Positions 53,310-57,007 of a stretch of 64,000 nt of DNA are shown one piece after another. How positions within the stretch are numbered: position 1 is the stretch's first letter; the number at the start of each line of letters is the position of its first letter. The notes beneath the pieces are model-generated. The model saw nothing but the letters and a program-made list of their open reading frames with translations, did not search any database and was not told the DNA's origin. The stretch covers positions 62,001 to 126,000 of the forward strand of contig CACPPD010000001.1 in assembly GCA_902635865.1 (NCBI GenBank), written 5' to 3'. Origin of the DNA: an uncultured Pelagibacteraceae bacterium. Lineage in GTDB: Bacteria > Pseudomonadota > Alphaproteobacteria > Pelagibacterales > Pelagibacteraceae. Made by a program: the position numbers and the translations under genes.

Positions 53310-54800
53310 ATGAAGTTATTTTTTATACTTGGTAATCAATTATTTCCAATAAAATACCTAGACCGCTTCAAAAAAGACCACCTATTTTTTATGGCTGAAG
53401 ATAAGGGTTTATGCACTTATGAAAAGCATCATAAACAAAAAATTTTATTATTTTTATCTTCGATGCGTTCTTATGCTGACGGATTAAGAAAAAACAAATT
53501 TAAATTAGATTATTTTAAAATTGAAGACAAAGAGTTTAATGATGATTATTTAAAAAAATTAAAAAAAATAATTACACAAAATAAAGTAAAAGAAATTTCA
53601 AGTTTTGAAGTAGAGGATAAATTTTTTGAAAAAAAAATTTCACAATTTTTAAAAAAAGAAAAAATACACTGGAATATTGTTCAAACTCCTATGTTTTTAA
53701 ATTCAAGAACTGAATTTAAAAATTATTTATCAAAATCAAAAAAACCTTTTATGGCAACTTTCTATAAAGATGTTAGAAAAAAATCAGGGATATTGATGGG
53801 CTCAGATGGTAATCCAATCGGGGGGAAATGGAGCTTTGATGAAGATAACAGAAATAAATTACCTAAAAACATTTCAATTCCTAAATTTCCAAAAATAAAT
53901 GAAACCAGTCATACAAAAAAACTAAAGCCTATTATTGAAAAGGAATTTAAAAATCACCCAGGGAGTATAAATAATTTTTGGTTTGCAACTGAATACGAGG
54001 AAGTTCTTAAACTTTTAAATTTTTTTATAAAAGAAAAATCAAACTTATTTGGTGATTATGAGGATGCAGTTGATCAAAAAGATAATATTCTATTTCATAG
54101 TGCATTAAGTCCTTATATAAATTTAGGTTTAATTACTCCTGAATTTGTTATCCAAAAAATTTTAGATTTTCATAAAAAAAAAAAAATTAGAATGAATTCT
54201 TTAGAGGGCTACATTCGCCAGGTGATTGGTTGGCGAGAATTTATGCGTGGAATTTATCAGTCCTATTCTCAAGAAATGGAAACTGGAAATTTTTTTAAAC
54301 AAAATAGAAAAATGAAAAGTTCTTGGTATGATGGGACTACTGGTCTTCCACCTTTGGATTATGCAATTAAAAATGCCGTTAATCATGGTTGGTCACATCA
54401 CATTGAAAGGTTAATGATCTTATCCAACATAATGAACCTTTGTGAAATTAAGCCAACAATTGTTTACAAATGGTTCATGGAAATGTTCGTAGACTCTTCA
54501 GATTGGGTGATGGTTCCTAATGTTTATGGAATGGGATTATTTAGTGACGGAGGAATTTTTGCGACCAAACCTTATATTTGTGGATCTGCATATTTTATGA
54601 AAATGATGGATTTTAAAAAAGGTGAGTGGTGCAACATTATGGATGGTCTTTATTGGAGATTTATTGACCGAAACAGGAAATTCTTTTTAAAAAATCCTCG
54701 TCTTTCGATGATGGTAAGAATATTTGATAAAATGAAATCTGATAGAAAAAAATTAATTTTATCTGAAGCTGATAAATTTATTAAACTAAATACAATTTGA
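53310..54800 (+). CDS. Cryptochrome/photolyase-related protein (PhrB/FeS-BCP type) with reduced cysteine set
   Basis: The 496-residue protein belongs to the deoxyribodipyrimidine photolyase-related (PhrB) class that repairs (6-4) lesions. The N-terminal domain begins KLFFILGNQLFP, and the FAD region includes LEGYIRQVIGWREFMRGIY and NHGWSHHIERLMILSNIMNL with the His-His pair typical of (6-4) enzymes. The four [4Fe-4S] cysteines of PhrB appear incomplete: Cys378 (MNLC) and Cys441 (EWCN) are candidates, but the C-x2-C pair is replaced by DFKKGEW. It overlaps the DUF2256 gene start. Confidence 0.88.
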   Translation: MKLFFILGNQLFPIKYLDRFKKDHLFFMAEDKGLCTYEKHHKQKILLFLSSMRSYADGLRKNKFKLDYFKIEDKEFNDDYLKKLKKIITQNKVKEISSFEVEDKFFEKKISQFLKKEKIHWNIVQTPMFLNSRTEFKNYLSKSKKPFMATFYKDVRKKSGILMGSDGNPIGGKWSFDEDNRNKLPKNISIPKFPKINETSHTKKLKPIIEKEFKNHPGSINNFWFATEYEEVLKLLNFFIKEKSNLFGDYEDAVDQKDNILFHSALSPYINLGLITPEFVIQKILDFHKKKKIRMNSLEGYIRQVIGWREFMRGIYQSYSQEMETGNFFKQNRKMKSSWYDGTTGLPPLDYAIKNAVNHGWSHHIERLMILSNIMNLCEIKPTIVYKWFMEMFVDSSDWVMVPNVYGMGLFSDGGIFATKPYICGSAYFMKMMDFKKGEWCNIMDGLYWRFIDRNRKFFLKNPRLSMMVRIFDKMKSDRKKLILSEADKFIKLNTI

Positions 54801-55653: not shown

Positions 55654-55871
55654 ATAATAAAATTTTTGAATGGGCAGGAGTTATAACTGCAATATTGTAT
55701 TCTTTGTTTGTCGCTTTAAATATAGGCATAGAATTTTTTGGGTTTTGTTTACTGTTATTGTCAGCCATTTTAATTGGAATTTGGGCCTATAGAGGTGGTC
55801 ACAAAGGAATTTTATTTTTGCAATTTTTTTATGCAACTGCTGGAATTATTGGAATGGTTCGTTGGTTTTAA
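55650..55871 (+). CDS. Small membrane protein, unknown
   Basis: The 73-residue protein has two or three hydrophobic segments (WAGVITAILYSLFVALNIGI; FGFCLLLLSAILIGIWAYRG; FLQFFYATAGIIGMVRWF). No family recognised. It is coupled to the amidotransferase gene by a 4-bp overlap and shares stop bases TTAA with the convergent photolyase-family gene. Confidence 0.68.
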   Translation: MNNKIFEWAGVITAILYSLFVALNIGIEFFGFCLLLLSAILIGIWAYRGGHKGILFLQFFYATAGIIGMVRWF

Positions 55872-57007
55872 TTAAAGCTTGAAACTATTTTAGGAATATA
55901 ATTTTTAAAATTAAAAAAACCTTTATTACAGTATTGCCAAGCTAATTGATCAAGATTTCTATATAAAAAATCTATCTTTAAATTATTAGAATTAAAAAAA
56001 TCTAAATTTTCACCTACTGTTGGATACAAACCGTAATAATTTTCAATATTTTTTAATTCACTTATATCTATAATTTGACAATCGATTGATTGATTTTTTA
56101 ATCTTTGTTCTTGGTTTTCTATTAAATGAGATTTAAATTTTACTAACTTTTCACTGAGTTTTATTGTTCTATTTTCATTTTTATTAGAAACTAGGTAAAT
56201 TTTCTTAAAGTTGTTTTCCTTAAAGTCAGTGATTTCAAAAGAGAGATTATTTTCAAAAATTAAAAGATTCTTATTCTCAATCTTTTGTGGGTTATTGAAA
56301 TCCTGTTTAATTATTTGATAAGATTTTTCAGATACTTTTGGAGGAGCATTTTCATTTAATTTTATATTTTGAAATCTATTGTTAGTGAATTTTTTAATAT
56401 TCCATTCACTTGCAAGGTAATGTTTTCCTTGAGTTTGAACACCCGCAACCCATCGCCACCCAAGAGTATTTGATGCAGCATCTCCATCATAAAGATGTTG
56501 CATAAAAAATTCTGCACCTAATTGCCAAGGCAATTCTAAAGTAAAAATCCAAATACTAGCAAACCACATTCTTGTGTGATTATGCAAATAATTGTTTTCT
56601 TTAAGCTCTTTCACCCACTCATTAAAGCAATCTACTTTTGTGTTTCCTTCGATTGCTGCAATAAAATCTTTATTATCTTTAAATTCATTTTTGATTTGAT
56701 TTAATTCGATAAGATAATCAGTCCAAACATTCGGTCTAAGTTCTAACCAACCTTTCCAATAAGTTCGCCATAAAACTTCTTGAATAAACTTTTCATTTTT
56801 TGAAAAAGAAAATTTACTTAGAGCTTTCTGAATGACTTCTTGTTCATTAATTATTCCATGAGTTATATATGGTGATAAGCAAGATATATTAGATCTTTTT
56901 TCAGGTCCAAAATCAAAATTTCTTAATTTTGAATATTCTCCAAGATTATTCTCAACAAAATTATTTAATTGATTTAAGGCTTTAGCCCTTGAAGCTTCAA
57001 ATATCAT
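55868..57007 (-). CDS. Photolyase/cryptochrome-family protein with N-terminal FAD domain (lacks the usual antenna domain)
   Basis: The 379-residue protein begins directly with the FAD-binding photolyase domain: LSPYITHGIINEQEVIQ (44-60), FIQEVLWRTYWKGWLELRP (74-92), NNYLHNHTRMWFASIWIF (138-155) and DGDAASNTLGWRWVAGV (174-190), all intact. The N-terminal Rossmann antenna domain (about 130 residues) of normal photolyases is absent. Instead a C-terminal region (about 240-379) with alternating predicted strands and helices (KIYLVSNKNE; DCQIIDISEL) follows. It may be a relocated or unrelated domain. Repair or light-sensing activity is unproven. Confidence 0.86.
   Translation of the reverse strand: MIFEASRAKALNQLNNFVENNLGEYSKLRNFDFGPEKRSNISCLSPYITHGIINEQEVIQKALSKFSFSKNEKFIQEVLWRTYWKGWLELRPNVWTDYLIELNQIKNEFKDNKDFIAAIEGNTKVDCFNEWVKELKENNYLHNHTRMWFASIWIFTLELPWQLGAEFFMQHLYDGDAASNTLGWRWVAGVQTQGKHYLASEWNIKKFTNNRFQNIKLNENAPPKVSEKSYQIIKQDFNNPQKIENKNLLIFENNLSFEITDFKENNFKKIYLVSNKNENRTIKLSEKLVKFKSHLIENQEQRLKNQSIDCQIIDISELKNIENYYGLYPTVGENLDFFNSNNLKIDFLYRNLDQLAWQYCNKGFFNFKNYIPKIVSSFN

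Follow-up and report, generated by a model that had tools for sequence, protein, structure and literature searches.

The gene at positions 55,868 to 57,007 of the window (the whole stretch of 64,000 nucleotides analysed here, from an uncultured Pelagibacteraceae bacterium of the SAR11 group) encodes a protein that is very probably a member of the known NewPHL class of photolyases (Phr7 in Prochlorococcus), in which the FAD domain is followed by an antenna-like domain. The evidence supports well a fresh example of a known photolyase layout, with no new protein type or class. The features were as follows:

55868..57007, reverse strand: inverted-order photolyase gene (probable NewPHL/Phr7 type), 379 aa, ATG start, stop codon within the coordinates
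56363..57007, reverse strand: N-terminal FAD/catalytic domain, residues 1-215, with ten invariant residues in 27 aligned rows
56291..56362, reverse strand: linker of low conservation, residues 216-239
55871..56290, reverse strand: alpha/beta domain at the C-terminus ('Z-domain'), residues 240-379, with a predicted fold closest to PhrB-type antenna domains
53310..54800, forward strand: convergent DPRP/PhrB-type photolyase gene (context only), a neighbour of the inverted gene in 79 of the 80 closest SAR11 loci

The reading frame and the N-terminal FAD domain

Pfam recognized FAD_binding_7 alone in the 379-residue protein (E-value 5.8e-18, residues 74-198) and found no antenna family. In a phmmer search of PDB sequences, stretches within residues 3-204 matched the FAD half of photolyases and cryptochromes; for example, residues 7-197 were aligned with residues 204-395 of the E. 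coli photolyase. An in-frame stop codon is located two codons 5' of the ATG, which rules out that an antenna domain is restored by an upstream extension of the frame. Among SAR11 relatives, the open frame began 0-35 codons 5' of the aligned methionine (22 loci: L001, L004-L022, L103, L104) or 0-8 codons 5' of it (80 loci, L023-L102). The stop near the ATG and the short upstream frames of the relatives therefore indicate that the FAD domain comes first and that no upstream Rossmann domain is missing. An earlier reading, based on the sequence only, had placed the FAD domain at residue 1 and named an upstream coding extension as the observation that would overturn this. The placement was borne out by the Pfam and phmmer matches, and such an extension was found neither in the gene nor in its SAR11 relatives.

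The domain order separates the protein from two other photolyase types. Class I CPD (cyclobutane pyrimidine dimer) photolyases share its catalytic FAD-domain residues but carry their antenna (PF00875) at the N-terminus, where the SAR11 protein has no PF00875. DPRP/FeS-BCP proteins combine an N-terminal PF04244 with membership of the matching FAD clade, and the SAR11 protein has neither.

Probable assignment to the NewPHL class

Although the sequence-only reading described the C-terminal region as unexplained, the same layout has already been published as NewPHL/Phr7 (PMC9426592), and thus the SAR11 gene does not represent a new type of protein. PMC9426592 describes Phr7/NewPHL proteins as single polypeptides with the FAD domain first, a short C-terminal 'Z-domain' and no Fe-S cysteines, and cites 2020 work according to which the D. 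shibae and M. mesophilicum proteins repair CPDs in single-stranded DNA. Similarly, in PMC13274461, NewPHLs or SPLs are credited with CPD repair in single-stranded DNA and with an inverted domain topology, and members are listed in Dinoroseobacter, Methylobacterium, Erythrobacter, and Rhodospirillum.

The SAR11 protein likewise consists of a single chain that opens with the FAD domain and ends with a second domain, which in the predicted model is also short, alpha/beta and antenna-like. Its cysteines (43, 127, 310, and 360 only) are scattered, none of them being invariant in 27 aligned rows, and the Fe-S cluster cysteines are absent, as stated for Phr7. No defining difference from the class was found. 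The link to NewPHL was drawn from layout, taxa and published descriptions of characterised members such as D. shibae A8LJA9 and M. mesophilicum M7YZC8, the inverted rows of the alignment and the tree being other proteins.

On a phylogenetic tree of the FAD domain, 41 inverted proteins (the SAR11 one and 40 others) formed one clade with support of 100/99, apart from class I photolyases (33 rows), DPRPs (19 rows) and FAD-only proteins, for which the term SPL is used here (eight rows). SAR11 rows were nested within the inverted clade, among other small-genome relatives. The tree comprised 101 rows, as six of 107 were left out (two spurious frames and four duplicates), and its groups had been pre-assigned by HMM score: 282-368 bits for inverted proteins, 138-165 for SPLs, 77-105 for class I, and 13-34 for DPRPs.

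Predicted fold of the C-terminal domain

Residues 240-379 were modelled with 79 SAR11 sequences (mean pLDDT 80, pTM 0.76). Strands and helices alternated in the predicted model, in keeping with the alpha/beta character that had been suspected for these approximately 140 residues. A full-length AlphaFold model had a mean pLDDT of 49 and was left out of any inference on domain packing.

No Pfam or NCBIfam family matched the C-terminal region, and no Foldseek match of its model had an E-value below 0.001. The first match by E-value was the universal stress protein (USP) 2gm3 (E-value 0.028, probability 0.91, TM 0.42). PhrB-type photolyases had similar probabilities and higher TM values: 9q8f (0.92 and 0.55), 3zxs (0.90 and 0.56), and 8a1h (0.82 and 0.48). 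When the top 1000 Foldseek chains were compared with VIA-align, the best nine entries were all antenna domains of photolyases or CryB, with Z of 7.5-8.5, values near 8 being within the range that the tool warns may reflect a common arrangement. These entries represented five proteins, R. sphaeroides CryB and the S. elongatus, V. cholerae, Caulobacter, and Agrobacterium PhrB enzymes, all of the PhrB type. The matches began at residue 1 or 2 of the chain (21 in one entry). Ranked next was a USP (Z 6.5), and class II photolyase antenna domains reached a Z of about 6 over 138 residues. With the weaker full-length model, the PhrB-type photolyase family likewise occupied VIA-align ranks 1-6. Class I photolyase chains were absent from the 50 rows listed in each VIA-align result, which excludes nothing.

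Profile comparison pointed in the same direction. The Z-domain profile scored 32.5 against the DPRP antenna (P 1.7e-4; columns 7-124 on 2-126, 115 columns, start to start), which was the best of six profiles compared and was matched by none of 100 shuffles; the DPRP profile held 29 rows, with the own protein in twice. The other scores were 24.1 for USP, 22.6 for the class I antenna, 21.9 for the Phr5-type antenna, and 13.4 for shikimate dehydrogenase. After removal of the five SAR11-family rows, the scores were 27.9 (DPRP), 24.9 (class I), 24.5 (Phr5-type), and 23.7 (USP). The DPRP match supports an antenna kinship of the Z-domain but is not decisive.

The class I antenna was rejected as a specific relative. 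Its score was above those of 199 of 200 column shuffles in one set and of all 100 in another, and the global alignment gave only 5.4. As the Z-domain scored USP as high as the class I antenna, and the class I antenna itself scored 35.5 against USP, the class I match was not counted as specific. The class I profile was built from 22 of 31 loci, those with a simple motif, class being judged by that motif alone. The USP and shikimate dehydrogenase profiles comprised 22 and 10 of 30 fetched loci each, picked for near-complete matches.

Judging from the predicted fold, the most likely identity of the Z-domain is a shortened alpha/beta domain of the antenna type with normal internal order. Since the match runs in this normal order, starting with the first antenna strand, the protein would differ from usual photolyases in the order of whole domains. 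The sequence-only reading, which considered a circular permutation, is supported in part: the fold search with residues 240-379 favours a reversed domain order, as a swap of whole domains with normal order inside the C-terminal one.

FAD-only relatives and the origin of the Z-domain

On the FAD tree, SPLs were sister to the inverted proteins (94/82, short of the 95/80 mark set by the tree tool), with class I and DPRP photolyases further out. Six genomes contained a Phr5-type antenna gene, each with an SPL FAD frame in the same locus, adjoining where ORFs were read. At two further SPL loci, an antenna-like ORF came directly after the FAD gene with a 4-base overlap. Individual loci at which a small antenna-like gene came directly after the SPL gene or overlapped it were L163 (1971-3097), L164 (1819-2948), L166 (2218-3563), L199 (20-1911), L200 (1483-2704), and L202 (588-1923). 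A C-terminal cysteine cluster of the Fe-S type was kept in the SPLs of L166, L125/L199, and L201 and absent in those of L163, L164, L200, and L203.

The cyanobacterial phr4/phr5 and phr6 genes also have the FAD part followed by the antenna part, according to PMC9426592. The order of FAD before antenna in SPL loci is thus common to the split and the fused forms. The SPL/Phr4-Phr5/Phr6 systems share this gene order with the SAR11 protein, but their FAD and antenna parts were separate genes in the eight genomes examined, whereas the SAR11 protein fuses both.

These relatives bear on a second reading, in which a short FAD-only photolyase (SPL/Phr4) acquired a new partner domain of unrelated origin at its C-terminus. 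It would agree with the sister position of SPLs, with the lack of a Pfam match to the C-terminal region, and with the USP score being as high as that of the class I antenna. However, the top structural rows and the top profile match were both PhrB-type antenna domains, and SPL genes adjoin a separate antenna-like gene, so that an antenna partner is not new on the SPL side. Moreover, SPL/Phr4 proteins have FAD alone in the chain, whereas the SAR11 protein has 165 residues past the FAD match and belongs to a separate tree group. We consider this reading unlikely, and an antenna-type origin of the Z-domain is preferred.

As for the source of such an antenna, the DPRP/FeS-BCP (PhrB) proteins provide the nearest fold and profile match of the Z-domain, but their own antenna is N-terminal and their FAD domain is distant from the inverted clade on the tree. 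The Phr5-type partner profile scored 47.0 against the class I antenna versus 22.2 against the PhrB type; this partner thus resembles the class I antenna, unlike the Z-domain, which leaves room for a chimeric origin. It is possible, though less likely than not, that the inverted class combines a FAD domain of the SPL/class I branch with a shortened PhrB/DPRP-type antenna rather than a Phr5-type one.

Catalytic residues and gene neighbourhood

Ten residues of the FAD domain were invariant in the 27 aligned rows (26 distinct): E77, W80, N143, R146, M147, W161, D174, D176, N180, and W184. They aligned with E. coli E274, W277, N341, R344, M345, W359, D372, D374, N378, and W382, respectively, all of them flavin- or lesion-site positions. 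The core FAD motifs are therefore intact, as had been claimed from the sequence. (6-4) photolyases have two histidines at the positions equivalent to E. coli N341 and M345, and the retention of N143 and M147 there fits CPD repair. The position of E. coli R342 was occupied by H144 (His in 26 of 27 rows). The position of W306, the outer tryptophan of the E. coli electron chain, was occupied by F109; since all 27 rows lack tryptophan in this column, the electron path must have another end point. Overall, the conserved residues are compatible with light-dependent CPD repair.

The gene neighbourhood was assessed in 80 SAR11 loci, which were the closest 80 of 569 confirmed stretches, and hence the counts are not independent. 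The inverted gene faced a DPRP-type photolyase gene in 79 of them, a glutamine amidotransferase gene was located between the two in 75, and the inverted gene followed a weakly PsiE-like gene in 78. The own genome encodes two other photolyases, this DPRP and a class I photolyase on another contig.

The Fe-S site of the SAR11 DPRP (53310-54800, forward strand) lacks the CxxC pair, with a 10-residue gap at that place. The pair was also absent in three other genomes of 1.2, 1.4, and 2.5 Mb (loci L193, L194, and L195) and kept in 24 other distinct rows. The inverted photolyase was detected in all four genomes without CxxC (G000, G158, G068, and G164) and in at least four of the 24 CxxC-keeping genomes (G072, G093, G095, and G169). 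Prochlorococcus has a Phr2 without Fe-S together with Phr7, according to PMC9426592. In the genome G090, the DPRP gene (C1:818569-819212, L196) yielded two matches, one with two in-frame stops, and looks broken; this genome has a FAD-only SPL in place of the inverted form.

With two further photolyases in the genome, repair by the inverted protein could be redundant, and together with the missing tryptophan at the W306 position this would suit a cryptochrome-like light sensor rather than a repair enzyme. Such a sensor is nevertheless quite improbable: the ten flavin- and lesion-site residues are kept in every row, even though H144 replaces R342, the gene adjoins another photolyase in nearly all of the loci, and published relatives repair CPDs, as stated in PMC9426592 and PMC13274461. 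The short light sensor, one of the options in the sequence-only reading, had nothing of its own in its favour.

Distribution and conservation of the C-terminal region

Full-length inverted copies were present in 25 of 61 genomes searched, including the own genome, and partial copies in two more, one of them at a contig start. Within this SAR11 genus, the gene was detected in 25 of 37 genomes, counting the two partial copies and with many of the genomes incomplete. Among 289 genomes drawn from the class, 21 contained full-length relatives (E-value 1e-30); four further matches were FAD-only proteins. Among 349 genomes drawn from the phylum, with an unspecified share of other classes, 18 had a match at 1e-30: besides the own genome, these were 17 others, all from its class.

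Plasmid-borne full-length inverted relatives were found in Ruegeria sp. TM1040, Niveispirillum, Peteryoungia, Asticcacaulis, and Novosphingobium. Four of these copies were labelled merely 'FAD-binding domain-containing protein', and the Niveispirillum copy was located in a stretch without listed genes. An AarF/ABC1/UbiB kinase gene was observed beside or near the plasmid inverted photolyase, itself under that label, in three records (L127, L129, and L130) from different taxonomic orders. No relatives in viral contigs were confirmed in three scans with three queries; matches in phage records were to the FAD half only (49-52% coverage).

The C-terminal region is a real domain under purifying selection in SAR11. 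Median dN/dS values were 0.116 (FAD part) and 0.139 (C-terminal part) over 150 sampled pairs from 73 SAR11 genes of equal length; a pair was discarded when its dS was outside 0-1.5 or lacked an estimate. In the 27-row alignment, G332, G363, and F365 were invariant, D353 was kept in 26 rows and W357 in 25, and the tail motif R..D...W....GFF.FK..IP was common to inverted proteins. All 42 inverted rows had 156-203 residues beyond the FAD match. Listed copies from the SAR11 genus were 378-381 aa long, compared to 382-423 aa in other aligned relatives. The C-terminal region could have been discounted had it proved unconserved; instead, relatives across Alphaproteobacteria, the low dN/dS and the invariant residues show that it is conserved.

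SAR11 genomes are reduced, the own genome being 0.93 Mb, and across the class the C-terminal part varies more than the FAD part, but a truncated, decaying photolyase with a lost antenna and a meaningless tail is refuted by the conservation of the C-terminal region, namely its length in all inverted rows and a dN/dS close to that of the FAD part.

Proposed function

Single-stranded CPD repair is probably the main job of the protein, by analogy with its published relatives. The protein would bind FAD, which in the reduced state would absorb blue light; the excited reduced flavin would then transfer an electron to a CPD that had been flipped into the site, and the CPD would split after this transfer. 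Single-stranded DNA would be the preferred substrate, as in the published relatives. Emmerich and colleagues reportedly found in 2020 that the NewPHL C-terminal domain seals the FAD site. By the same analogy, the Z-domain would probably pack on the FAD site and close it, with or without an antenna pigment, rather than serve mainly as a light antenna.

Significance

SAR11 bacteria are among the most abundant bacteria of sunlit water, and their photolyase set thus bears on how UV is handled in the surface ocean. The inverted photolyase occurs regularly in this SAR11 genus, and many natural sequences are now available for asking about the origin of the C-terminal domain. If the chimeric origin is true, a FAD-only photolyase was fused to the antenna of another lineage, possibly from a DPRP gene like the one that still adjoins it in SAR11.
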